DNA of 64,000 nt from Flavobacteriaceae bacterium. GTDB taxonomy: Bacteria; Bacteroidota; Bacteroidia; Flavobacteriales; Flavobacteriaceae. A program made the position numbers and the translations under genes. The stretch lies in the NCBI GenBank assembly GCA_014238425.1, contig JABABD010000016.1, positions 186,001 through 250,000 on the forward strand, written 5' to 3'. This document shows positions 2,857-15,451 of the stretch, piece by piece (the stretch's first letter is position 1; each line of letters begins with the position of its first letter). The notes below the pieces were generated by a model, which worked only from the letters and a program-made list of their open reading frames with translations, did no database searches and was not told the origin of the DNA.

Positions 2857-4206
2857 ATGTCTGACGACTTCGATTTATTAGAAACCAATTCCAACGAAAA
2901 AACTGAAAAAGTAGATGTTAATTGGGGAAAGGCTATTGACCAAATGAAATCTAAATTGGCGCAAGAAGATGATCCAGAAAGTCGTCAAAAGATTCTAAAT
3001 GCGACCTTAGATAATGTTGTAGATATGGCAGAAAAGGATAGAAGTACACTTCTTGACGCTATTAAAGATCTTACAGACTATCAAGATGAAGTTGGTATTA
3101 TGTTCGAAGGGTTTTCGGCACTTAATGCAGCCGAACAAAAAATTATTGACGATGCCGTTAAACGTTTAGAACGTGCTAAAGTAGAACTGGAGGATGCCAA
3201 TAATAAACCAGATACTTGGTGGAATAACCTCTGGGGAAGAAAGAGCAAGATCAAAAAGGCAGAAGAAGAACTTAAAACGGCGCAAAAAGAACGAGATGCT
3301 TCAGATAACAAAGCAAAAGCTATGTTCCAACAGCGTATTGAAAATGCTGATGTACAAACCTTATTAAACGAGTTATCATTTAAAAGTCAAGCGGCAATTA
3401 AGCGCTTAAAGGATCGTGAAGTAGAAATTAAGGAAGTAGAGGAAAGCCTTAAAACGGCCATTGTTGAAGCTAGTAATAACCATACCAAAGCACTTCAAAA
3501 GAAAAAAGAAGTCGAAGCAAAATTAGAAGAACAATATGCGCTATTGAAACAAGCGCGTCAGGCTTTAGAAGAAGTTGCAGATAAACAATCTACAGAATAT
3601 TCTGATGCATTAGCAAAAGTAACGCAGTTAGAGCAGAAGGTAGAAGAGCTAGAAGGTCTTAAAAATGCTTATACTACACTTGCAGCTTCAAAAGATAGCT
3701 TTGTACATAAGCATAATTTAACGATCAAGGTGTTAACGTCATTGCGTAGTAATTTGCAAACACATCGTGCTAAATTGAAAAGTGATACAGATGAGCGTTT
3801 AAAATATTATGATGGTTATGTTGTGGCTTTAAAGGCACGTACAGATCAAGAATTTGCTGCTATTTTAGAGCACTTAGGTGTCAAAACTGATGAACATATA
3901 GGAGAAACTCTTGCGGCTATGCATACAGCAAGCGCTAAAGCACGTCAGGAAATGATGGATAACATTCCTGTGCATGAAAAAGTAATGCAGGGAGTTTATG
4001 GAAGTTATGCAGAGGCTTTACAGGAAATTAGAGAAAAGGATAAGAGCATTCAGAAAAATTTTGCTGAGCGTTATGGTATTGATATGAAAGAAATTTTTGA
4101 AGAATATTATGCAGCAGATCCGGATGCTCCATCTGGAGACGATGATAATGGAGGAGAACCTGACGGTAATGCAAAGCCTGAAGGCGAAGACGATTTGTTA
4201 TCTTAA
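2857..4206 (+). CDS. Large cytoplasmic coiled-coil protein, TelA-like in character
   Basis: 449 aa with no signal peptide or membrane helix. Long coiled coils (about residues 75-300) are interrupted near residue 120 by a Trp-rich insert (TWWNNLWGRKSK), followed by a helical region and an acidic disordered tail ending GEDDLLS. The composition and helical layout resemble toxic-anion-resistance (TelA) and so-called microtubule-binding annotations of bacterial coiled-coil proteins, but I see no diagnostic motif. An in-frame ATG lies upstream at 2776; I chose ATG 2857 (MSDDFDLLE) because the extra residues lie in AT-rich promoter-like DNA. It is first in the operon with the AAA+ ATPase and may be its partner or substrate. 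Confidence 0.75.
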   Translation: MSDDFDLLETNSNEKTEKVDVNWGKAIDQMKSKLAQEDDPESRQKILNATLDNVVDMAEKDRSTLLDAIKDLTDYQDEVGIMFEGFSALNAAEQKIIDDAVKRLERAKVELEDANNKPDTWWNNLWGRKSKIKKAEEELKTAQKERDASDNKAKAMFQQRIENADVQTLLNELSFKSQAAIKRLKDREVEIKEVEESLKTAIVEASNNHTKALQKKKEVEAKLEEQYALLKQARQALEEVADKQSTEYSDALAKVTQLEQKVEELEGLKNAYTTLAASKDSFVHKHNLTIKVLTSLRSNLQTHRAKLKSDTDERLKYYDGYVVALKARTDQEFAAILEHLGVKTDEHIGETLAAMHTASAKARQEMMDNIPVHEKVMQGVYGSYAEALQEIREKDKSIQKNFAERYGIDMKEIFEEYYAADPDAPSGDDDNGGEPDGNAKPEGEDDLLS

Positions 4207-4214
4207 AATAATTT

Positions 4215-4365
4215 GAGCGTTCCGTTTCCATCTCTGGCTTAGTCAAGAGAAGGAAACGGAAGGCTTTCCGCAGTCGCTTTTATTGCGCAACCTTGAGTAG
4301 AGTCGAAAAGCCTCAAACAGCAATAAAGAGCTCCGACAAATGCTTCAATCCTTAACGCATATCAA
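4215..4365. repeat. Composite palindromic intergenic repeat
   Basis: Bases 4220-4261 form a long hairpin: ten pairs (TTCCGTTTCC / GGAAACGGAA), one A-A mismatch, five more pairs (TCTCT / AGAGA) and a ten-base loop. Further on, CTTTTATTGC near 4277 and GCAATAAAGAG near 4320 form an outer inverted repeat around a GC-richer core. The layout resembles the REP-like intergenic repeats that I associate with flavobacterial genomes. It separates the coiled-coil gene from the rest of the operon and could act as an RNA-processing or attenuation site. Confidence 0.5.
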
Positions 4366-4378
4366 CACAACAATATAT

Positions 4379-4558
4379 ATGAATAAAAGAACTTTATTTT
4401 TAGCTGCAATTGTATTTACAGCTTGTGTAGCCTTGTACTTTATTTACAATTCCAACGATCATATCGAATGTGAAATTAAAACAGAAGTGACCTATGGATC
4501 CAAAGGAGAAAAAATAATTACAGATACGCACATCTGTAAAGAGAAATTCAACCTATAA
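4379..4558 (+). CDS. Small membrane-anchored protein, 59 aa
   Basis: Unrecognised. One N-terminal hydrophobic segment (about residues 5-22, LFLAAIVFTACVALYFIY) is followed by a polar extracytoplasmic-looking tail with two cysteines (HIECE, HICKE) about 20 residues apart that could form a disulfide. The sequence around the first Cys (FTAC) is a poor lipobox. The open frame extends upstream to 4340, but that part overlaps the intergenic repeat, so ATG 4379 is the better start. It lies 29 bases before the 357-aa gene on the same strand. Confidence 0.55.
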   Translation: MNKRTLFLAAIVFTACVALYFIYNSNDHIECEIKTEVTYGSKGEKIITDTHICKEKFNL

Positions 4559-4587
4559 TATTAAATAAGAATCCAGAATACGTAAAC

Positions 4588-5661
4588 ATGTCTATAAATC
4601 ATATTGTAACCCCTCTAGATTCTGCCGTTCTCGACTCTAAAGAACAGTATGCTTTTTATCATAAAATGGTCGAGCATGCATTAAAGGAGCTCATTGAGAG
4701 CATGAACTCTAATAATCTATGTAATGAGCAAGAACTGGTGTTTTTTAAGCAATATTGCGATTTGCTGCTCTATTCTATCGAAGCGATGCGTGTTAAATAC
4801 ATGTATGATGACGAAGATAACATGAAGATAGATCTTACTGAATCGGGGTTTCCTAATTACTTAGAGTTTCGCTATCTCTTTAATGACCTAGGATTACGTG
4901 ATAATTACATTCAGAAACTTCCAGATCTTGATGTTATAAAAGAAGATTTCCTAGATACTTTGCTTAGAAAAAAAGAGCATGTTAGCAAGCGAAAACTATT
5001 CCAAGCAGCATCCTTAAGGTATTATACTACGGTCGACCAGAAATATATCTACAATCGGTTTGTGCAGGGTAAGATTGTGGATGCGCCCAAAGACGTCAGT
5101 TCAAAATATATGACGAGTTGGAGTTTTTATGATGTGACTTTTAATAGACCATTTATATGTTTTATGTATTTTGATTACAAAGGAGGTAATGCTTTAAAAG
5201 ATAGAAATGCTATTTATGAAGTTCTTAAAAATTCAGCAGACAGACATATGGATTTAGATACTATGGCATACGGTATTGATAGAAAATTACCAGACATACT
5301 TCCAAAACATATTAAACGTATTGATTTAGGACCATTACATAATGTATTTGCCAAGGATGAACATATAATGACGCATTCCATACTCGAAAGTATTTCTAAA
5401 AAAGAGATTCCTTTAGAATCTTTCGCATTCTCACTCCAAATCGATGAAGTGTTTTCAGGTAGTGAATTTAAGGAGGGCAGCTATTTCAGCAAACAAACGC
5501 TTCAAAAATGGGACTACGTTCTTAAACAACCTTATGTCTTTGCGCCACATCGTATTATTCAATTGCTTTATAATAAAGCACCTGAGTTAATGAATAAATT
5601 AAAAAAAGCACCTTTTCAAGTAGGAAGTATTGAGTCTGCAGTCGGCAGTAATAAGATTTAA
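4588..5661 (+). CDS. Conserved-looking protein of unknown function, 357 aa, in the AAA+ operon
   Basis: No recognised domain, signal peptide or membrane helix, so probably cytoplasmic. The N-terminal third is helical and acidic; the middle contains an aromatic-rich segment (SWSFYDVTFNRPFICFMYFDYKGG) that looks like a beta-strand core. The last residues (ESAVGSNKI) are encoded by heptamer repeat DNA at 5633-5652, so the native C-terminus may have been replaced when the next gene arrived. It is cotranscribed with the downstream genes; the gap to the four-helix-bundle gene is only five bases. Confidence 0.65.
   Translation: MSINHIVTPLDSAVLDSKEQYAFYHKMVEHALKELIESMNSNNLCNEQELVFFKQYCDLLLYSIEAMRVKYMYDDEDNMKIDLTESGFPNYLEFRYLFNDLGLRDNYIQKLPDLDVIKEDFLDTLLRKKEHVSKRKLFQAASLRYYTTVDQKYIYNRFVQGKIVDAPKDVSSKYMTSWSFYDVTFNRPFICFMYFDYKGGNALKDRNAIYEVLKNSADRHMDLDTMAYGIDRKLPDILPKHIKRIDLGPLHNVFAKDEHIMTHSILESISKKEIPLESFAFSLQIDEVFSGSEFKEGSYFSKQTLQKWDYVLKQPYVFAPHRIIQLLYNKAPELMNKLKKAPFQVGSIESAVGSNKI
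5633..5652 (-). repeat. Heptamer repeat block, left flank of the four-helix-bundle gene
   Basis: Read on the minus strand this is ATT, then ACTGCCG, ACTGCAG and ACT: tandem heptamers of the form ACTGNNN. The same heptamer type, in the opposite orientation, occurs at 6054-6077. The block encodes the last residues of the 357-aa protein. Confidence 0.6.
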
Positions 5662-5666
5662 GATAA

Positions 5667-6026
5667 ATGAGTTTTAAGACTTTGTTAGCATATCAAAAAG
5701 GATTTGATTTAGCAATGGAAATTTTCCAGATGTCTAAAAATTTCCCTAAATCAGAACAATTTGGACTGACTTCTCAAATAGTCAGGTCAAGTCGTTCAGT
5801 TTGTTCAAACATTACAGAAGGTTATAGGAAAAGACAGTATGAGAAACATTTCAAGAGTAAACTATCTGATTCTGATAGTGAAAATTCTGAAACCCAATTA
5901 TGGCTGGATTTTGCATTTGCTTGCGAATATATTTCAGAAGATAAAAGAAAAGAATTACAAAATAAAAGTGAAGAGATCGGGAAGCTCATCTATTATATGA
6001 TGAATAATCCTGATAAATTTAAATAA
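5667..6026 (+). CDS. Four-helix-bundle protein (S23 / bacterial IVS-protein family)
   Basis: 119 aa, the usual length of this family (TIGR02436), which was first seen in intervening sequences of 23S rRNA genes and also includes the Avd accessory protein of diversity-generating retroelements. Typical motifs are the opening (F-x-x-L-x-A-Y-Q-K-G), FPKSEQFGLTSQIVRSSRSV, SNITEG and the TQLWLDFA helix. It probably forms a basic pentameric barrel that binds nucleic acid; the role of stand-alone copies is unknown. It sits inside an otherwise coherent operon and is bracketed by inverted ACTGNNN heptamer blocks, so it is probably a late insertion. No reverse transcriptase or rRNA gene is nearby. Confidence 0.85.
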   Translation: MSFKTLLAYQKGFDLAMEIFQMSKNFPKSEQFGLTSQIVRSSRSVCSNITEGYRKRQYEKHFKSKLSDSDSENSETQLWLDFAFACEYISEDKRKELQNKSEEIGKLIYYMMNNPDKFK

Positions 6027-6053
6027 GTATTAAACTATCAAGTCCAAATGTAT

Positions 6054-6077
6054 ACTGCGGACTGATTACTGAAGACT
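6054..6077 (+). repeat. Heptamer repeat block, right flank of the four-helix-bundle gene
   Basis: Three tandem heptamers (ACTGCGG, ACTGATT, ACTGAAG) and a partial fourth (ACT). They match the ACTGNNN heptamers at 5633-5652, which point the other way, so the gene between them has inverted flanks about 400 bases apart. The block ends six bases before the AAA+ start codon. Confidence 0.6.
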
Positions 6078-6082
6078 AAACA

Positions 6083-8044
6083 ATGGAACACAATTCAACA
6101 TTCCCCATAAAACAATCAGAACTCGATATGCTTCGTGATGAAGCTGCATCATACATAAAAAGTGTGCAGTGGGAGCAAGGTATGCGAGCTAGAAATAAAG
6201 ATAAAGATGCTAAGGACGATTCTATTCTGTTGTATCTCTCACGGGCCAAAGGCAATGGCGGAACTGATGTGACGTCAGTCTCTAAAACCATTTTATCATT
6301 GAAGAAACGTTTGTTACCTGATTCAGTAGCTATTCCTTTACATCTCAATCAAACCTTATTGTCTGTTCAAGAAGGCATAGCATTAGGAATTTGGATAAAG
6401 GATAGCTATTATGATGCTTCTGGTTTGTCTGCATTAAGTGAGAACAAATCAGCATTAGGGAATGACCAAAAACGTGAATACGAAAGCAAAATGCAAACAG
6501 CTACGGCGTTCATGTTATATGCTGCTGCGTATAATATTATTCATAATTTAAAGACTGTTGCCTCAGATGATCTATCAGTTATGAAGAACAAGTTTGCTGG
6601 TATTCCAGAACTGTCATTCATGTCTCCGTTAAAAGGTATTTCCTGTTCTTTATATTATTACGATAAGTATTTGAGTCATCCAGACGTTGTAAAGTCTGAT
6701 AAAGATGTTGCCGATTTTACTGTGGTATATTTTGAGGCACTTATTGATGAGATTCAACTTCGTAAGAGTTCTTTGGAGTATACAGAAACCATTACAGATA
6801 GAACCTATAAGTTAGAGAATTCTGAGTTTGCCATTTCCGGCTGGGATAATGTGTTTGCTGGTACGGCTAAGAGTATAGAATTCAACAAGATACAGTTTGA
6901 GCAAATAGTTGGTAACCGTGATGCAAAGCACTTTGCACGACGTTTGACTGAACGTATGCTGAGTTACGATTTTATCGCTAAAAAGAACCCATTTCAAGAA
7001 TTAGGAGGTTTCATGCCAGTGTTTATGGGGTACGGAATTCCTGGAACTGGAAAGAGTATGTTAATCGCTGCTATTGCCACGCGATTGAAAGAACATTGTG
7101 ATAATTTGGATATTCCATTCTTGTTTCATCCTATGCCAGATACTTTGATATCGACGTTTCAAGGAGGATCTGCTGAAAAGATGGTAGAATGGATGAAACC
7201 ACTACAAGACCCATCAAAACTCATATTTGCACCGATTGATGATGCAGAGAATAATCTCCAAGAACGTACGGCGCAAGGTGTGTCTGCAGGAGTAAAAGAA
7301 GTTATCGGTGTATTCTTAAGATATACAGAAGGCGCTTATGCCGTTAATTATGGAAATAGCTCAATTGGCTTGTTTACCAACCTTCCTGAGATGCTAGATA
7401 AAGCAGTTATATCTCGTGTACAAGGACGATTCAAGATTGACGGTGCTAGGACAGAACACGATTTCTTAGATCAAGATCACTTGTGGTGGCGCAAACTTCA
7501 AGACACTATGCCAGATTTTATCAATATGAATGACCCAAAGGGGTATAATTACTTAGCGGATCAAGGTTTGGCAAAGAATATGGGAGAGATCTTAAACGTA
7601 TCGGACAAACCAAATGAAGAGCGCGTATTAGAAGCATACGATAAAACTATAAAGATTCATAAAACTAATGATCACGTATTTTACGCGACTTTGTACAAAG
7701 AAATTCAGAAGCTGTTTCCGTTTTTTTCCTCAAGAGATGTTAGGAATATTCAATCTGCGGTATCTTTACGATTAACTGATTTTGATTTAGAAAAAGACTG
7801 GTTCGAGAATCCAGACATATATTTCAAACAAGATTACGACACTAAGTTTGGTATGCTACAAGAATTGATGCGTTCGAATATGAAAGGCTTGGACTTTTCA
7901 GAAATAAGACGACAAGAGGTGGTACGTTATCTCGATAATGTAGCTACTATTGCTGATACAGATTTTAAACGAAAAGTGGATGCTAGAATCAATCAATTGA
8001 ATATAGAGTTAGAGGCTAGAGAGCAATTTGATGATGGAAAATAA
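6083..8044 (+). CDS. AAA+ family ATPase, atypical, 653 aa
   Basis: The N-terminal region of about 300 residues has no recognised domain and is followed by one AAA+ module. Walker A is GIPGTGKS at residues 318-325 (K324); the Walker B-like segment is LIFAPIDDAE at 380-389, with DDAE where most AAA+ proteins have DE or DD plus a small residue. A sensor-1-like SIGLFTN follows, then SRVQGRF, which carries a candidate arginine finger. A helical C-terminal region completes the protein. It is cytoplasmic and probably oligomeric. Its stop overlaps the start of nudK, so the two are translationally coupled. The coiled-coil first gene of the operon is a natural candidate partner. The substrate is unknown. 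Confidence 0.8.
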   Translation: MEHNSTFPIKQSELDMLRDEAASYIKSVQWEQGMRARNKDKDAKDDSILLYLSRAKGNGGTDVTSVSKTILSLKKRLLPDSVAIPLHLNQTLLSVQEGIALGIWIKDSYYDASGLSALSENKSALGNDQKREYESKMQTATAFMLYAAAYNIIHNLKTVASDDLSVMKNKFAGIPELSFMSPLKGISCSLYYYDKYLSHPDVVKSDKDVADFTVVYFEALIDEIQLRKSSLEYTETITDRTYKLENSEFAISGWDNVFAGTAKSIEFNKIQFEQIVGNRDAKHFARRLTERMLSYDFIAKKNPFQELGGFMPVFMGYGIPGTGKSMLIAAIATRLKEHCDNLDIPFLFHPMPDTLISTFQGGSAEKMVEWMKPLQDPSKLIFAPIDDAENNLQERTAQGVSAGVKEVIGVFLRYTEGAYAVNYGNSSIGLFTNLPEMLDKAVISRVQGRFKIDGARTEHDFLDQDHLWWRKLQDTMPDFINMNDPKGYNYLADQGLAKNMGEILNVSDKPNEERVLEAYDKTIKIHKTNDHVFYATLYKEIQKLFPFFSSRDVRNIQSAVSLRLTDFDLEKDWFENPDIYFKQDYDTKFGMLQELMRSNMKGLDFSEIRRQEVVRYLDNVATIADTDFKRKVDARINQLNIELEAREQFDDGK

Positions 8045-8618
8045 TAGAGTTAAGAACATAGAGAAAAAACTATTGTCCGATAATTGGTATACACTTAATA
8101 AGTTCAGTTACGATTTTCAGACCAATAATGGTGAATGGATAAGGCAAGAGCGCGAAGCCTATGATCGTGGTAATGGTGCTGCGATTCTTTTATATAATGA
8201 AGAGAAACAAACGGTTGTTTTAACAAAACAATTCAGGATGCCTACCTATGTTAATGGAAATGATGATGGTTATATGATAGAGGCTTGTGCTGGGTTGTTG
8301 GATGATAATAATCCTGAAGATTGTATCAAAAAGGAAACAGAAGAGGAAACAGGTTATAGACTCAATAATGTCAAGAAAATTTTTGAAATGTACATGTCGC
8401 CAGGTTCTGTAACTGAAAAACTGTATTTTTTTGTGGCGGAATATGACTCCAAAATGAAAGTAAGTGATGGTGGTGGTGTTGAAACCGAAACCGAAGATAT
8501 TGAAGTTCTTGAATTACCTTTTGAAGAAGCGCTGGAAATGATGAATTCTGGAAAAATTGAAGATGCTAAGACGATTATTTTGTTGCAATATGCACAAATC
8601 TTTAGTTTAATGTCATGA
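8031..8618 (+). CDS. nudK: GDP-mannose pyrophosphatase NudK-like Nudix hydrolase
   Basis: Nudix hydrolase of the NudK (YffH) type, which cleaves GDP-mannose to GMP and mannose 1-phosphate; related members prefer other nucleotide sugars or ADP-ribose. About 195 aa, the family length. Characteristic NudK stretches are LSDNWYTL, YDRGNGAAILLYN, QFRMPTYVNGN and the Nudix box running from AGLLDDNNPE to KKETEEETG, then YMSPG and EDIEVLELPFEEALEM. The open frame begins at a TTG (8028); ATG 8031 or 8034 is more likely, inside the end of the AAA+ gene. The next gene starts in the overlapping ATGA. Its presence in this operon suggests a nucleotide-sugar or nucleotide-signal link. Confidence 0.9.
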   Translation: MMENNRVKNIEKKLLSDNWYTLNKFSYDFQTNNGEWIRQEREAYDRGNGAAILLYNEEKQTVVLTKQFRMPTYVNGNDDGYMIEACAGLLDDNNPEDCIKKETEEETGYRLNNVKKIFEMYMSPGSVTEKLYFFVAEYDSKMKVSDGGGVETETEDIEVLELPFEEALEMMNSGKIEDAKTIILLQYAQIFSLMS

Positions 8619-9850
8619 AAAAACTAATAGCTGCTAATCTATACCGAAGTGAATTATTGCCTATAAGTGGTAAACTCGTTGAACGTTATAACCAATGTTT
8701 GACTTTGCTTGGTTTTGGGCCTACAAAGCTCAAGACGTTTTCTATAGATGGTATTGGCTGGAGTCCAGAAATAGCAGAGAAACGTAAAAATCCGCATTAT
8801 CTAAATAGTGGAGATGCTAATCCGCATGCCATTATCATAACACCTCGGCAAAAAAACAAACCCGTGTATGTGCCCTTTCATTCCTTTGATCGAGATATCA
8901 TGAAACAGGTGTTCAGGATTCATGGAGAAAAGATTAGTGATATTACTCGTGACTGTGCAATTTGCGTGGACTTGGATCAATATATTGATGCGTTTTATGA
9001 GCCTCTAGACGTATTGAAGTACACGAATATTAATATTGGATTCAGACTGGTCAATGATTTGGATAAAGCCCAACAAAAGCAACTAGAACTTATAGAGACC
9101 TTTAAACAAGGCAATAATTTTATCGATGAAAATGTCCATATCCAATTACTGGGGATGGCAAAAAAATATGGTGATCTAAGAGATCGTGACTTGAACCTTC
9201 ATGAGCTTCAATTCACAACTGATTCCTTTTATACTAGGGCTTTTGGAGGTGTCTATGTGCTGCGGGATTTTATTTCACCAATCGTAGTTTTTGAAGATGA
9301 AAAATGGTACAAGGAGGCAATAAAAGACACGATGCATGATGTGCTTATTTATCATATCAAGCAACCAGAACTTATAGAGAAGCTTCGCGACCACGTCATT
9401 GTCACTTACGACCTCGAAGATGCTGTAAAGACAGAACGCTATGAGCGCATTAAAAAGTACATTTTTGCAAGTACTTTAAAAAACACCAATAATCCAATAA
9501 AAGATATTTTAGAAGATAATATTTTATTCAAAAGCTATTTAAACAAGGTAGATATTGATGCTCGCAAGCGTGTTATGTGTGTAGAACGTTATCTTGAAAA
9601 GTTAGAAATTAGTAACCAATATAAGATTTCTGATATGATTGATGACGATGTGTTTATCTCGTTACATGAGCCACATTCATCATTAATGGCAAAACACCAA
9701 GACCTTATATGGAAACTCTTGGTAAACATTGCGCCATTTGACCCTTTGCATCTATATTGGTATGACAAAGAAGGTTTTTATAAGACCTACCAAACTTGGG
9801 ATGACTCTTATAAAGACTGGGTTATAGATTATATCAGTAACAAAGTTTGA
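8615..9850 (+). CDS. Protein of unknown function, 411 aa, coupled to nudK
   Basis: No recognised domain, signal peptide or membrane helix. The N-terminal half contains a conserved-looking block (GIGWSPEIAEKRKNPHYLN, then NPHAIIITPRQKNKPVYVP) and an acidic segment (DLDQYIDAFYEP). The C-terminal half is helical with several conserved-looking Trp, Asp and Tyr residues (DPLHLYWYDKEGFYKTY). Its ATG overlaps the nudK stop (ATGA), which indicates translational coupling and a joint function with the AAA+ ATPase and NudK. I cannot name the family with certainty. Confidence 0.7.
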   Translation: MKKLIAANLYRSELLPISGKLVERYNQCLTLLGFGPTKLKTFSIDGIGWSPEIAEKRKNPHYLNSGDANPHAIIITPRQKNKPVYVPFHSFDRDIMKQVFRIHGEKISDITRDCAICVDLDQYIDAFYEPLDVLKYTNINIGFRLVNDLDKAQQKQLELIETFKQGNNFIDENVHIQLLGMAKKYGDLRDRDLNLHELQFTTDSFYTRAFGGVYVLRDFISPIVVFEDEKWYKEAIKDTMHDVLIYHIKQPELIEKLRDHVIVTYDLEDAVKTERYERIKKYIFASTLKNTNNPIKDILEDNILFKSYLNKVDIDARKRVMCVERYLEKLEISNQYKISDMIDDDVFISLHEPHSSLMAKHQDLIWKLLVNIAPFDPLHLYWYDKEGFYKTYQTWDDSYKDWVIDYISNKV

Positions 9851-9896
9851 TTAGAATAGACTAATTTTATAAGAAACATATTTAAATCCAACCATT

Positions 9897-10451
9897 ATGA
9901 CCATAGAACTCATCACTTTCATCGCAGCTATTTTATTTGGCGTATTACTTTATTGGCGAGAATCTAATGGAAACGGCATATATCGTTTCGTAAATAAATT
10001 GGCATATAGCAAAGAGCTTCAAATGAAGCCTGAAGATAGAAAAGGGTTTATTTACCAGCAGTCACTTCTGTTGCGTATTGTTTTTATTACGGCTTTGTTC
10101 TTGATTGGCATTGTAATTACACGATTCCTCATTCCAATTGATTTGGCTACCATTTCGTTATTTGCTTCGATGATCGTTGGAACCTTAGTAGGAACCTATG
10201 TTGCTGCCTTCGTTTTTAAGTCGGGAGAAGTCATTGATGAGAAATCAGATTCTATAGAAGATGTGTTTCATGACACTATTGAAAAAGGAAAAGATTTTAT
10301 CGAAGACCTTAAGGCAAAAGGAGAAAAGTCAGCTGAAGCAGTTGAAGAAAAAATAGAAGATGTAAAGGAAGACATTAAAGAAGTAAAAGAAGATATTAAA
10401 GAAGATGCTAAAAGCGCTAGAGAGCGATTAAAGGATAAGGGACTTTTATAG
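9897..10451 (+). CDS. Membrane protein with charged amphipathic repeat tail, 184 aa
   Basis: Three hydrophobic helices (about residues 5-20, 56-77 and 83-108) are followed by a long soluble tail of alternating acidic and basic residues. Within the tail the run EDVKEDIKEVKEDIKEDAK repeats with a seven-residue step, like YtxH or LEA-type amphipathic helices seen in stress proteins. It could lie along the membrane or bind the operon's coiled-coil protein. Same strand, 46 bases after the 411-aa gene. Function unknown. Confidence 0.65.
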   Translation: MTIELITFIAAILFGVLLYWRESNGNGIYRFVNKLAYSKELQMKPEDRKGFIYQQSLLLRIVFITALFLIGIVITRFLIPIDLATISLFASMIVGTLVGTYVAAFVFKSGEVIDEKSDSIEDVFHDTIEKGKDFIEDLKAKGEKSAEAVEEKIEDVKEDIKEVKEDIKEDAKSARERLKDKGLL

Positions 10452-10453
10452 AT

Positions 10454-10522
10454 TGTCATTCCGCATTAAATGCGGAATCCATCTTTAATTAATAAAAGAT
10501 TCCTGCAAAGGCAGTAATGACA
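10454..10522. repeat. REP-like element with terminal inverted repeats and two hairpins
   Basis: The outer ends TGTCATT (10454-10460) and AATGACA (10516-10522) are inverted repeats. Inside are a perfect hairpin (ATTCCGCAT, loop TAA, ATGCGGAAT at 10458-10478), an ATCTTT / AAAGAT pairing in the centre, and a second hairpin (ATTCCTGC / GCAGTAAT, one mismatch). This looks like a paired REP element of the kind scattered between flavobacterial genes. It lies between two operon genes and may reduce downstream expression. Confidence 0.65.
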
Positions 10523-10533
10523 AAACAAAATAA

Positions 10534-12231
10534 ATGATAAAAAGATACTGGCAAAAAGGAGCAAAGCAAAAAACCATAGTAATTGTAATAGGTTTGATTC
10601 TGCTCGTCGCATTGTTCATTCTTAGAGATGACTATCAACCTGCGTTGTTATTCATTAGGAAATTCATCTTCATTATTTTATTGAGTGCTATCATAATGTA
10701 TTTCGGGTTAAAGAAATTCAGAAGCTCAGCAAGGTCTGGAAAGCGATTAGGGATATTGGCATTATTGATTCTCTTCTTCGGAATCCTATATTTCGCAGGA
10801 TGGCATTTTAAAATGTACGATTATATGAAAACTTATAATGTTTTCAATAGCATGAACAAAGTAGAAATAGATGAATTACCGCTTACCCAAAACGAGCGTA
10901 TTCAGCCTTTACGTAATATCTTCTCAATGGCGAATGAATCCGTCGGGGAAACTTTGGATGTCTCTTTACCGCATTTGGTGCGAGTAGATGGCGAGAATAA
11001 ATGGACAATGGCAATCCAACCATCAGAACAATATACATTGCAACAAATAAAAGATAATACAGAAGAAGTGTTCGCAGTATCTAGCACAACACCATTTCCG
11101 AGGTTTTCTAACGAGAACAGGATCTCGGTGACATTCTCAATAGGAGAGTCTCTAAAGTTCAGTAGAAACACTTATAATGCAGTTGTACAACGTTTTAATC
11201 CTTGGATGCTCGTTAATTACGAACCAGGCGATACCTTTTACATGAAAAACGATGATGGTAAATGGGTTGAAGTAGTGAGCTTGATAAAATGGAAAGGATT
11301 CTTTTTTCCGTATCCAACCTTTGGTGGCGTGATGGTAGTTGATAGTGGAGAGCATGATTTCAATGATTATGTCGAGCGTATCTTGATCGGTAAAGGAACA
11401 TTTATTAGCCCTGAGGAGATGAAGAACTATCCCTACTTGACAAAGCAGAATACGTTATCAGAGAAAGTGTCGCGCTTACAGGCAAGTTCTTTAAAGTTCT
11501 TAGGCGGTTTTAGTGATCCACTACCATGGAATATGCAAACAGCAGTTAAGATTCCTGACTTGTCAAAAGATCAAAATGAACAACCTTTTGTAACGGATTT
11601 TGATTTTTCCGATACTAAAAGTAATGCTTATAGCGGATTATATCATTGGTTCGGACTAGAACCAGTAGGCGATGAACGGACTAGTTTAACCTATAGCGTA
11701 TTTGTTCCAGCTGATGGCACCGATGCCTTGTATTATTATGATCATGCCACAAGAAAGCAAGGATATGCAGGAGTTTCGGCAATGCCTTTAAAAGTTAAGG
11801 AATCTAGAAAAGAGTACGATTGGACCGCCAATACACCTGTAGAATTCAGGCCTTATATCAAAAATATTGCAGGACGTAAACGTATGTTTTTTTTAGGAAC
11901 TGTATCAGCGATCAGTGATAAAGACTCTGGTCAATTTGACGGTTCTGCGACACCAGATTTAGTGTTAATTGATAGTGAATATCGGGACGTCGTGTGGATT
12001 GATGTAAAACACCCAAGCACTTGGGACAAGATGGTGTATGACCAACTAAATGAAGCTTGGCGTTCTAGTGAAGGTATAGATGACTACTATGTTGAGGAAA
12101 CTAAAACGATTGAAAGGTTTAAAAGAATTGCAGATTCTTTAAAAACAATTCCTGTTCTGGATAAGAATGACGATAAGATTGAACGTTTACAAAGACAGAT
12201 AGATTCTATTAAAGCATTGAAGGGCAATTAA
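10534..12231 (+). CDS. Membrane protein with large soluble domain, 565 aa, unknown function
   Basis: Three N-terminal transmembrane helices (about residues 15-32, 37-57 and 70-88) are followed by roughly 440 soluble residues and a short C-terminal coiled coil (IERLQRQIDSIKALK). With an odd number of helices after a basic start (MIKRYWQKGAKQK), the large domain is predicted to be outside the cytoplasm. No recognised domain. It ends the plus-strand operon and converges on the RamB-like regulator with a nine-base gap and no clear terminator hairpin. The topology suggests it couples the cytoplasmic AAA+/NudK machinery to the envelope, but that is inference. Confidence 0.65.
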   Translation: MIKRYWQKGAKQKTIVIVIGLILLVALFILRDDYQPALLFIRKFIFIILLSAIIMYFGLKKFRSSARSGKRLGILALLILFFGILYFAGWHFKMYDYMKTYNVFNSMNKVEIDELPLTQNERIQPLRNIFSMANESVGETLDVSLPHLVRVDGENKWTMAIQPSEQYTLQQIKDNTEEVFAVSSTTPFPRFSNENRISVTFSIGESLKFSRNTYNAVVQRFNPWMLVNYEPGDTFYMKNDDGKWVEVVSLIKWKGFFFPYPTFGGVMVVDSGEHDFNDYVERILIGKGTFISPEEMKNYPYLTKQNTLSEKVSRLQASSLKFLGGFSDPLPWNMQTAVKIPDLSKDQNEQPFVTDFDFSDTKSNAYSGLYHWFGLEPVGDERTSLTYSVFVPADGTDALYYYDHATRKQGYAGVSAMPLKVKESRKEYDWTANTPVEFRPYIKNIAGRKRMFFLGTVSAISDKDSGQFDGSATPDLVLIDSEYRDVVWIDVKHPSTWDKMVYDQLNEAWRSSEGIDDYYVEETKTIERFKRIADSLKTIPVLDKNDDKIERLQRQIDSIKALKGN

Positions 12232-12240
12232 AAAGTAGAC

Positions 12241-13725
12241 TTATTGTATTTGACTAAATCTATTTGTCAATTCGCCAACCACTATTTCCGTGAGTGTGTT
12301 TTTAGATAAGCGTTCTAGAATAATTGCTGGAGCTTTTCTTTCCTTGCAATCAGCTATAGAACAGCGCTCACATGTAACACCAACATTTCGTGTTTTGATT
12401 TTTTTATCATCTAAAAATGCTATTTTACGTTTGAGTTGTTTATTAATTAAAAGCCCAACACTAATGCTGCGATAACGCTTAGTGCTAAAAGGGTCTTTAG
12501 TAGCAGATGAGAGTACTAAATAGTGTACGTCATCATCTGGATAATAAGAAACCTGAGCATCAAACACATGTTTTTTACTATTTTCACTAATATTTTTGAG
12601 AACATTTAACGACACCCATCGTCGGCAATAATGTTCATTGTTTTCATTAGCGTGAGGTGAGTGCTGATGCGATAAATGTAATTCCTTATTAAGATAAAAC
12701 CTTTGACTGCCTGCTTCATGCGTAAATCTTAAAAAAAACAGATTTTGAATATTGAAATCCTTTGGTAAAATATTGGTCAATCTTTGGTAAAAGGACTCCG
12801 GAGACGCATTAAAACCATTCATTGTTTTTAGAAAAAGTGATTTATCAAGAGTGTCTTTCTTAAAGAAATCAGCTAGTTGCTTGGTAATAATTGTTTTTGG
12901 TAAAATTAATGCACCAGCAAAATAAGACGCATAAAAATTATTTAGGACTTGATCAAAGTTCTCAAATTTAATCCACGAAAAGGTATATAAACGATCTTTG
13001 AATTCTAAAAAGTTATATGCTAACTCTTTGGCATAAATAAAGGTGCGTTGTGCATTATCTATATGATTCGCCAATAGAAGTGTTTTTGTTTTTGGAACAA
13101 AAACAGAACGCAAATTGCCTAGCGCTTCATGCTTGTTTAACTCATTTTTGTTAATGGTATAACCGTATTCCTCAATTAAGATGTCTTCCAGTTCTTTTGG
13201 AGAAATTGGCTTGTTTAAATCTAATTGATAAGCTTTTGCGAATTTTAGGACACTGTGCTCTAAATTATCAAAATAATTATTATTGGCTTCTTGGAATGAA
13301 CGTACTGAAGCCAAATAAAAACTTTCTCTGCTGACATTATAGTGTTGAGCAATTTTAATAATTGTGCTAATAAATGCATTTACTTTTGCTGGGGCATTGG
13401 CAACTATATCTATTAAGTTGCTTTCTTTTATTCCAAAAAGTTCGAGGGGTATTTCTTTTAAAATTTTGGATTGAAGAATTTCTCCAATTGGCGCTAGATT
13501 CTTATCTAGTTTTAGGGAAACAAAATGATCATAAGGAACATCTAGTTTTTCAGAGAGTATCGCGATCTTATCAGGTTTAGGGTATTTTTTTCCTTTTTCA
13601 ATTTCGTTTAAATATGATTTTGATAAGCCAGAAAGCTTTGATAGCCCAAACAACGACAGGTCTTTGTCTGTTCTTATTTGCTTAAGCTTCAATCCAAAAA
13701 TAAGTTTAATATAGTTTTCTTCCAT
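12241..13725 (-). CDS. RamB-like transcriptional regulator (XRE HTH + degenerate IrrE-type + C-terminal Cys domain)
   Basis: 494 aa. The N-terminal XRE helix-turn-helix (about residues 8-62, LSKLSGLSKSYLNEIEKGK) is followed by an IrrE/ImmA-like region in which the metalloprotease HExxH is degenerate (AKELAYNF). The C-terminal domain has the motif GVTCERCSIADCKER that marks short-chain acyl-CoA regulators such as RamB, the acetate regulator of Corynebacterium. An upstream in-frame TTG at 13734 is possible, but ATG 13725 is preferred. It is divergent from aceB-aceA across 127 bases, the arrangement expected for a direct regulator of the glyoxylate shunt, probably sensing an acyl-CoA. Confidence 0.85.
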   Translation of the reverse strand: MEENYIKLIFGLKLKQIRTDKDLSLFGLSKLSGLSKSYLNEIEKGKKYPKPDKIAILSEKLDVPYDHFVSLKLDKNLAPIGEILQSKILKEIPLELFGIKESNLIDIVANAPAKVNAFISTIIKIAQHYNVSRESFYLASVRSFQEANNNYFDNLEHSVLKFAKAYQLDLNKPISPKELEDILIEEYGYTINKNELNKHEALGNLRSVFVPKTKTLLLANHIDNAQRTFIYAKELAYNFLEFKDRLYTFSWIKFENFDQVLNNFYASYFAGALILPKTIITKQLADFFKKDTLDKSLFLKTMNGFNASPESFYQRLTNILPKDFNIQNLFFLRFTHEAGSQRFYLNKELHLSHQHSPHANENNEHYCRRWVSLNVLKNISENSKKHVFDAQVSYYPDDDVHYLVLSSATKDPFSTKRYRSISVGLLINKQLKRKIAFLDDKKIKTRNVGVTCERCSIADCKERKAPAIILERLSKNTLTEIVVGELTNRFSQIQ

Positions 13726-13787
13726 AATTCGCAATCAAATATAATGTTTTTTGCGGATTATCTATTTTTTAAGTATTTTAACTATTT

Positions 13788-13852: not shown

Positions 13853-15451
13853 ATGGAAAACACATTATTGAAAGAGCAGAAAATAAATTTCTCAAAAGAG
13901 GTTAATAATTATTATCCAGATATATTAACAGATGACGCCTTAGCTTTTTTAACAGCTTTGCATGAAAAGTTTAACGATAAAAGATTGAACCTACTTGAAG
14001 AAAGACTTATGCAACAGACTGTATTTAATAAAGGTATGTTTCCTGAATTCCCTAAAGAAACGGCTTCTATAAGAAATGGAGATTGGGTTGCAGGATCTAT
14101 TCCTCATGATTTAAAAGACAGACGTGTTGAGATTACTGGACCTGTTGATAGAAAAATGATTATCAATGCATTGAATTCAGGAGCTAAAACCTTTATGGCA
14201 GACTTAGAAGACAGTAATGCACCCACATGGACAAATACTATAGAAGGCCAGAAAAACTTAATAGATGCTAACAAAAAAACAATTTTGTTGCACGATACCA
14301 AGAGAAACAAAAAATATGAATTGAATGATAAGACGGCTGTTTTATTAGTGAGGCCAAGAGGATTGCATTTAAATGAAAGACATATCTTAATTAATAAGGA
14401 AGAGGTTTCTGGAAGCTTGGTTGATTTTGGATTGTATGTATGGCATAATACAGCTACAATGCTAGAAAACGGTACAGCACCTTATTTTTATCTACCAAAG
14501 CTTGAACATTATGCTGAAGCACGTTGGTGGAATGAGGTATTTGAGTTTGCTCAAGATTATTTGGGAGTGCCTAAAGGAACATATAAAGCCACAGTTTTAA
14601 TAGAAACAATAACTGCTAGTTTTCAGTTAGACGAAATTATCTATGAACTAAAAGATCATATTGTAGGTTTAAATTGTGGACGCTGGGATTATATATTCTC
14701 TTATATCAAAAAGTTTCGTAACCACACTGATTTTATCGTGCCTAATAGAGATCAGGTAACTATGAGTACACCTTTTATGGATGCTTATTCTAAATTGGTG
14801 ATTCAGCGTTGTCATAAAAGAGGAATTCATGCAATTGGAGGTATGGCAGCACAGATCCCTATTAAAAATGATGAATATGCAAATATTGTTGCCCTAGAAA
14901 AGGTACGTGCAGATAAAGAACGAGAAGTTAAAAATGGGCATGACGGTACTTGGGTGGCTCATCCAGCTTTGGTTAGTGTTGCCATGAATGAGTTTAATAA
15001 ATATATGCCAACTGAAAATCAGTTGAATGTAACAAGGGACGACATTGTTATTACAGAGCAAGATTTAGTCGAATTGCCAAGAGGTACGGTTTCAGAAGAA
15101 GGAATTAGAAAGAACATTAATGTAGGCATTCTTTATATAGAGGCATGGTTAAGAGGTTATGGTGCTGTAGCGCTTTATAATTTAATGGAGGACGCTGCAA
15201 CTGCCGAAATATCTAGGACACAAATTTGGCAATGGTTAAAAAGAGAAGTGAAACTTGAAGATGGAAGGATTTTTACAATTGAGCTTTTTGACGATATTTT
15301 TAATAATGAGGTTGAGAAAATCATCACTGAAGTTGGAGAGGGAAATATTGGTAAGACTAAATTCAAATTGGCGATAGAATTATTCAAAAAATTAGTTACA
15401 ACTGAGGAGTTTGAAGAATTTTTAACATTATCAGCATATAATCATATATAA
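13853..15451 (+). CDS. aceB: Malate synthase A
   Basis: Condenses glyoxylate with acetyl-CoA to malate, the second step of the glyoxylate shunt; cytoplasmic. 532 aa, the usual length of the A isoform. The malate synthase signature KDHIVGLNCGRWDY is at residues 267-280, and substrate-binding stretches such as FMADLEDSNAPTW and HAIGGMAAQIPI are present. The start ATG follows a long AT-rich leader. It is first in an operon with aceA; an RNA hairpin lies in the 83-base gap between them. The divergent RamB-like gene suggests repression or activation in response to acetate or fatty-acid metabolites. Confidence 0.97.
   Translation: MENTLLKEQKINFSKEVNNYYPDILTDDALAFLTALHEKFNDKRLNLLEERLMQQTVFNKGMFPEFPKETASIRNGDWVAGSIPHDLKDRRVEITGPVDRKMIINALNSGAKTFMADLEDSNAPTWTNTIEGQKNLIDANKKTILLHDTKRNKKYELNDKTAVLLVRPRGLHLNERHILINKEEVSGSLVDFGLYVWHNTATMLENGTAPYFYLPKLEHYAEARWWNEVFEFAQDYLGVPKGTYKATVLIETITASFQLDEIIYELKDHIVGLNCGRWDYIFSYIKKFRNHTDFIVPNRDQVTMSTPFMDAYSKLVIQRCHKRGIHAIGGMAAQIPIKNDEYANIVALEKVRADKEREVKNGHDGTWVAHPALVSVAMNEFNKYMPTENQLNVTRDDIVITEQDLVELPRGTVSEEGIRKNINVGILYIEAWLRGYGAVALYNLMEDAATAEISRTQIWQWLKREVKLEDGRIFTIELFDDIFNNEVEKIITEVGEGNIGKTKFKLAIELFKKLVTTEEFEEFLTLSAYNHI

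Follow-up and report, generated by a model that had tools for sequence, protein, structure and literature searches.

A conserved gene module around an atypical AAA+ ATPase and a coiled-coil protein in Flavobacteriaceae, with a four-gene core in Proteobacteria

Several described systems resemble the locus studied here in part, namely ESCRT-III/Vps4 and the pairs of PspA with AAA+ ATPases, classical-clade AAA remodellers such as VCP/Cdc48, and TelA/Ter islands. Protein-threading AAA enzymes use an aromatic pore loop, and Ter islands mix membrane and nucleotide-processing genes. In a published survey (PMC11237479), PspA/Snf7 proteins are repeatedly paired with AAA+ ATPases. Here, we analyzed a string of nine genes, named A to I in order, in a 64,000-nucleotide stretch of DNA from a Flavobacteriaceae bacterium (GenBank assembly GCA_014238425.1, contig JABABD010000016.1, positions 186,001 to 250,000, forward strand; hereafter the window). 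An earlier note on this DNA had proposed an uncharacterized system around an atypical AAA+ ATPase (E) and a coiled-coil protein (A), with membrane partners, and our results support this proposal with a revised list of parts.

The gene content of the system was examined in 397 genomes of the window's family, Flavobacteriaceae, from which 80 loci encoding DUF6638 (the family of G), about one per genus from about 75 genera, were cut out and searched with the window proteins. In 74 of these loci, A, C, E, G, H, and I keep the same order and strand. In the remaining loci, only E, G, H, and I were found four times, A, C, E, and G once, and G with H once; some of these incomplete loci, several in number, are truncated by a contig or stretch end. 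Between core genes, pairwise divergence correlates at r 0.75–0.93. The nudK gene (F) is present in 36 loci and gene D in 11, and the 62-residue gene B, seen in the window only, has no match in any of the 80. Divergence of NudK correlates with that of any core gene at r 0.15–0.30, versus 0.48–0.79 among core genes in the same genomes. Because these genes are patchy and NudK divergence hardly tracks the core, we regard NudK, D, and B as passengers. The nine-gene operon originally described is thus a run of nine co-directional open reading frames whose full set is particular to the window's genome, and six of the nine are kept as a natural unit. Neighborhood conservation in relatives, set beforehand as the test of that description, holds for these six and fails for NudK, D, and B, so that NudK, earlier counted as a component, drops out. 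An ABC-F-like gene lies directly before A in 52/80 loci, and the site is therefore stable.

Presence of the module is nearly all-or-none. DUF6638 was found in 112 of the 397 genomes and E in 114, including all 112; the carriers without DUF6638 (G338 and G512) are fragmented assemblies in which E is matched in part or on a short contig. A Fisher test of this co-occurrence gives 4e-98 over the 397 genomes with shared ancestry ignored; a sturdier argument is that no genome is cleanly discordant. The module occurs in 76 of 237 genera and in roughly three in ten of the Flavobacteriaceae sampled. Across an even phylum-wide sample of 198 genomes, full-length E, G, and I were each found in the same three.

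The search outside the family covered 72,556 plasmid-type records. The 10 records with a full-length relative of E are precisely those with a relative of G (Vibrio 4, Sinorhizobium 4, Shinella 1, Rhizobium 1), and the two genes ahead of E are homologues of A and C in all six loci read. Profile comparison (hhalign) with the Vibrio/Rhizobiaceae proteins gave 96.7% for A (E-value 3.8e-10), 99.2% for C, 100% for E, and 99.9% for G, versus 0–4% for cross-pair controls, and revealed no counterpart of H or I in these loci. Because H and I lack a proteobacterial counterpart, the unit common to Bacteroidota, Alphaproteobacteria, and Gammaproteobacteria is A-C-E-G, with its order kept, and H and I are constant but lineage-specific partners in the flavobacterial version. 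Sinorhizobium and Shinella encode a DUF2333 membrane protein 3′ of G, for which neither H nor I is an equivalent (hhalign 0.1–0.3%). In S. meliloti Ak57 (locus L225, 10851–12596), the AAA+ and DUF6638 genes are separated by an IS4-family element and a gene with an endonuclease domain.

Protein E belongs to the AAA ATPase family (PF00004, 36 bits against a cut-off of 21.2), and its AAA domain aligns with a VCP-like ATPase (E-value 2.9e-10), proteasomal ATPases, Pch2, and Vps4. In the alignment with the VCP-like ATPase, STFQGGS/SSYQGKS of E falls on the pore-loop-1 sequence SKYYGQS/SKWVGES, and IDDAE/IDDVD falls on IDEID. The Walker A motif, [FY]QG, IDD, and the stretch from sensor 1 to the arginine fingers are invariant in all 148 distinct E sequences, proteobacterial ones included. 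The earlier reading of an atypical ATPase with a DDAE Walker B-like motif was borne out by Walker A GYGIPGTGKS and by FAPIDDAE. These comparisons show that E is a classical-clade AAA protein with an invariant Asp-Asp Walker B instead of Asp-Glu. Because Asp takes the place of the catalytic Glu without exception across phyla, it characterizes the lineage and is not a sign of decay. Protein threading by E is predicted from its aromatic pore loop. No recognized domain was detected in the N-terminal region of about 270 residues (Pfam, PDB profile search) or in the C-terminal region of about 200 residues (Pfam), and neither an MIT nor a Vps4 C-terminal domain is present at Pfam E-value ≤ 1.

Protein A is the best-conserved module member, with a mean pairwise identity of 85% over 75 sequences. 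Its N-terminus reads M[SAP][DE][DE]FDLLET in 136/136 distinct flavobacterial sequences, and its C-terminus, which follows a variable, low-complexity linker, ends in DDLLS, DDLLG, or DDMLS in 126 of them and in close variants in the other 10. This pattern suggests that the terminal motifs are docking peptides. An AlphaFold2 model of A is all-helical with long helices, at low confidence (mean predicted local distance difference test score, pLDDT, 61), and Foldseek searches with it returned only generic coiled coils, none at E-value < 0.001. Protein A has no Pfam or NCBIfam match above curated cut-offs, and a PDB profile search gave no credible match.

Two of the proteins first listed as unknown could be assigned to families. 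The 411-residue G is a member of DUF6638 (PF20343, E-value 6.8e-35, 121.2 bits against a curated cut-off of 27), a family without assigned function, and the 119-residue D is a 23S rRNA-intervening-sequence four-helix protein; C remains without a family, with no credible Pfam, NCBIfam, or PDB match, including a Pfam scan of all alignment members. The model of G (mean pLDDT 64) gave no Foldseek match below E-value 0.001, and PDB profile searches of G and I gave no credible match. F was correctly read as a nucleotide-sugar pyrophosphatase (NudK equivalog NF011585, 263.5 bits against a cut-off of 234). By hydropathy, A, C, E, and G of the window have no predicted transmembrane (TM) segment, H has three predicted hydrophobic segments and a charged coiled tail, and I has three predicted TM segments followed by a domain of about 450 residues that is predicted to be extracytoplasmic. 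H and I therefore match the two membrane proteins reported earlier, one with a large extracytoplasmic domain, but B, with one predicted TM segment, makes a third. H and I have no family match above curated Pfam or NCBIfam cut-offs, and a Pfam scan of the alignment members of I detected nothing beyond a weak resemblance to DUF4199 in the TM part. No paper on DUF6638 or on this combination of genes was found in a search of the open-licence literature.

The nine reading frames all lie on the + strand within window positions 2857–12231 (Table 1) and are separated, in order, by 163, 29, 5, 56, −14, −4, 46, and 82 nt. The tight spacing and start-stop overlaps noted before are present in the sequence: the nudK ATG at 8031 precedes the E stop codon at 8042–8044, and nudK and G overlap by 4 nt (ATGA). 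A promoter and terminator scan gave promoter counts close to chance and no clear internal boundary in the gene string. The spacer at 4207–4370 is single copy, which excludes a dispersed repeat.

Table 1. Features of the gene module in the window
Feature	Position	Strand	Basis
A: 449-aa coiled-coil protein, core gene 1	2857-4206	+	conservation, profile homology
A N-terminal motif [DE][DE]FDLLET	2863-2886	+	sequence comparison
A C-terminal motif DDLLS, 3′ of variable linker	4189-4203	+	sequence comparison
B: 62-aa single-TM protein, not conserved	4370-4558	+	search of 80 related loci
C: 357-aa soluble protein without family, core gene 2	4588-5661	+	profile homology to Vibrio/Rhizobiaceae
D: 23S rRNA-intervening-sequence four-helix protein (119 aa), passenger	5667-6026	+	PF05635, E-value 8.8e-33
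E: AAA+ ATPase, 653 aa, core gene 3	6083-8044	+	PF00004
E Walker A GYGIPGTGKS	7028-7057	+	G.G.PGTGK[ST] in 148/148
E pore loop 1 STFQGGS	7151-7171	+	S.[FY]QG.S in 148/148
E Walker B FAPIDDAE (Asp replacing catalytic Glu)	7226-7249	+	IDD in 148/148
E sensor 1 Asn to arginine fingers	7373-7429	+	F[TS]N..E..D.A...R...R in 148/148
F: NudK GDP-mannose pyrophosphatase, passenger	8031-8618	+	NF011585
G: DUF6638 protein, 411 aa, core gene 4	8615-9850	+	PF20343
H: 184-aa protein, lineage-specific partner	9897-10451	+	present in 79/80 loci
I: 565-aa protein, lineage-specific partner	10534-12231	+	TM by hydropathy, phylum co-occurrence

Small passenger genes are repeatedly inserted in the operon, including the four-helix gene found here at 5667–6026, GIY-YIG-like genes, and a gene for a 213-residue TM protein, and these insertions mostly fall in the same slots between core genes (for example, around 12549 in locus L111). 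Upstream, three consecutive small single-TM proteins are encoded at 1841–2576 on the − strand, and homologues of one such protein, of about 78 residues, lie upstream of A in 43/80 loci. Downstream, a 497-residue helix-turn-helix (HTH) regulator with M78-peptidase-like and ScfR C-terminal similarity (12241–13734, −) is divergent to a gene whose product reads like malate synthase (13853–15451, +). A homologue of this regulator stands after the module in 6/80 loci, and the pair looks like a control unit for glyoxylate or short-chain acyl-CoA metabolism that is unrelated to the module.

From gene content and order, we consider a joint function of the core proteins A, C, E, and G very probable. As to how, we tentatively propose (probability about 0.4) that the module encodes a cytoplasmic AAA+ machine for protein remodelling, which has A as its resident substrate and is held at the membrane by H and I. 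Protein E would form a ring whose pore loop grips and pulls polypeptide, and its Asp-Asp Walker B could make ATP hydrolysis slow or conditional. The resident substrate, or scaffold, would be the helical A, although action of E on A is itself put at somewhat less than even odds. A probably assembles into a higher-order structure, and the acidic-leucine motifs at its ends may dock it to E, C, or G, while C and G, as obligate partners, would serve as adaptors or assembly factors. H, with its TM segments and cytoplasmic coil, and I, with its TM segments and extracytoplasmic domain, would anchor the machine at the inner membrane and pass on a signal from the envelope, with I as the candidate sensor. 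The module may have an envelope or stress role; envelope maintenance is our likeliest guess for the physiological output, and an envelope-protection role is put at low probability.

Several points weigh against this proposal. Physical interaction of the proteins is inferred from linkage, and genes for proteins that act separately could keep their order because they are regulated together. The predicted structures of A and G, at pLDDT 61–64, are too weak for testing a complex. Proteobacterial homologues of A carry neither terminal motif, so these motifs cannot serve as a universal docking site and are instead a flavobacterial feature. Because Vibrio and one Rhizobium have no obvious adjoining membrane partner, membrane action may be a flavobacterial addition. 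Finally, one genome (G282, locus L096) has E about 0.75 Mb from DUF6638 on the same contig; it is the sole genome with such a natural operon split.

The same dependence on linkage speaks for one alternative, in which the genes form a conserved string without a shared machine, co-transcribed by history. We find this improbable, as linkage and order are kept between phyla at about 20–25% identity and presence is all-or-none. A more specific possibility is a functional analogue of ESCRT-III/Vps4 or Psp, in which A would be a membrane-associated polymer that is disassembled by E and protects the inner membrane in lineages mostly without PspA. The alignment of E with the Vps4 and VCP AAA domains, the link to membrane proteins throughout Flavobacteriaceae, and the recurrent pairing of PspA/Snf7 with AAA+ ATPases in the survey (PMC11237479) agree with this idea, although the survey's passages do not include A-C-E-G among these pairs. 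PspA is also rarer in carriers of the module (3/114) than in non-carriers (30/283; p 0.008, uncorrected for phylogeny and suggestive only), and no PspA_IM30 protein, and hence no PSP system, was found in the window's genome; shared ancestry alone may produce this anticorrelation, and three genomes carry both PspA and the module. A is not PspA (hhalign 0.3–0.9%) and has no Snf7 or PspA match in Pfam, as a Vps4 partner would, the weak model of A retrieved nothing closer than generic coiled coils, and E lacks the accessory domains of Vps4 at Pfam E-value ≤ 1. We consider such an analogue unlikely. Somewhat less likely still is the boldest form of our own proposal, an undescribed cross-phylum system in which E, with its Asp-Asp Walker B, acts on a helical protein that has no relationship to PspA/ESCRT-III, is coupled to the envelope via lineage-specific membrane proteins, and replaces Psp-type membrane protection in part of Flavobacteriaceae.

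If the AAA+ ATPase and its partners formed an anti-phage or conflict system, this would fit the patchy distribution across genera (76/237) and a weak similarity of the AAA domain of E to IetA (E-value 3.2e-5). The other PADLOC matches are only partial and coiled-coil-like, with no full-length component, phage records gave no match, and viral contigs gave one weak AAA-only match and nothing full-length. Moreover, slow evolution (mean identity 85% for A and 80% for E), the same ABC-F-like neighbor in most loci, and co-divergence as one unit are unlike typical defence islands, and we consider this reading very improbable. Least probable of all is a tellurite/Ter-like metal-stress system in which A replaces TelA. 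A and TelA are both helical proteins of about 360–450 residues, and the mix of membrane and nucleotide-processing genes recalls Ter islands, but the resemblance that the earlier note had seen is not homology: A is not TelA (PF05816; no Pfam match, hhalign 0.1%), the window's genome encodes no TelA, Pfam and NCBIfam detect no TerC/TerD-type family among the module proteins, and in 3/4 relatives TelA was instead read beside TerD-like genes.

Three hypothetical families (A, C, and DUF6638) and an unusual AAA ATPase can now be tested as one proposed remodelling machine, whose four-gene core is defined and occurs in Vibrio, rhizobia, and many Flavobacteriaceae. The corrected list of parts means that NudK can be omitted from experiments. 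If A is indeed the substrate of E, the two would be a coiled-coil/AAA pair new to bacterial cell biology, and E would represent an additional AAA lineage in which a Walker B substitution is fixed.

Compared with known systems, the module resembles TelA/Ter islands in its general mix of helical, ATPase, and membrane proteins and differs in that no homologous component was found. With VCP/Cdc48, Vps4, proteasomal ATPases, and Pch2/TRIP13, E shares Walker A, the aromatic pore loop 1, sensor 1, and the arginine fingers, but unlike these classical-clade remodellers it has an invariant Asp-Asp in Walker B and a single AAA domain whose flanks contain no recognized domains. Like ESCRT-III/Vps4 and the PspA-AAA+ pairs, the module encodes a helical coiled-coil protein together with an AAA ATPase near membrane proteins; unlike them, its coiled-coil protein lies outside the PspA/Snf7 family, its ATPase has neither MIT nor Vps4_C, and it includes two further constant soluble partners, C and G.

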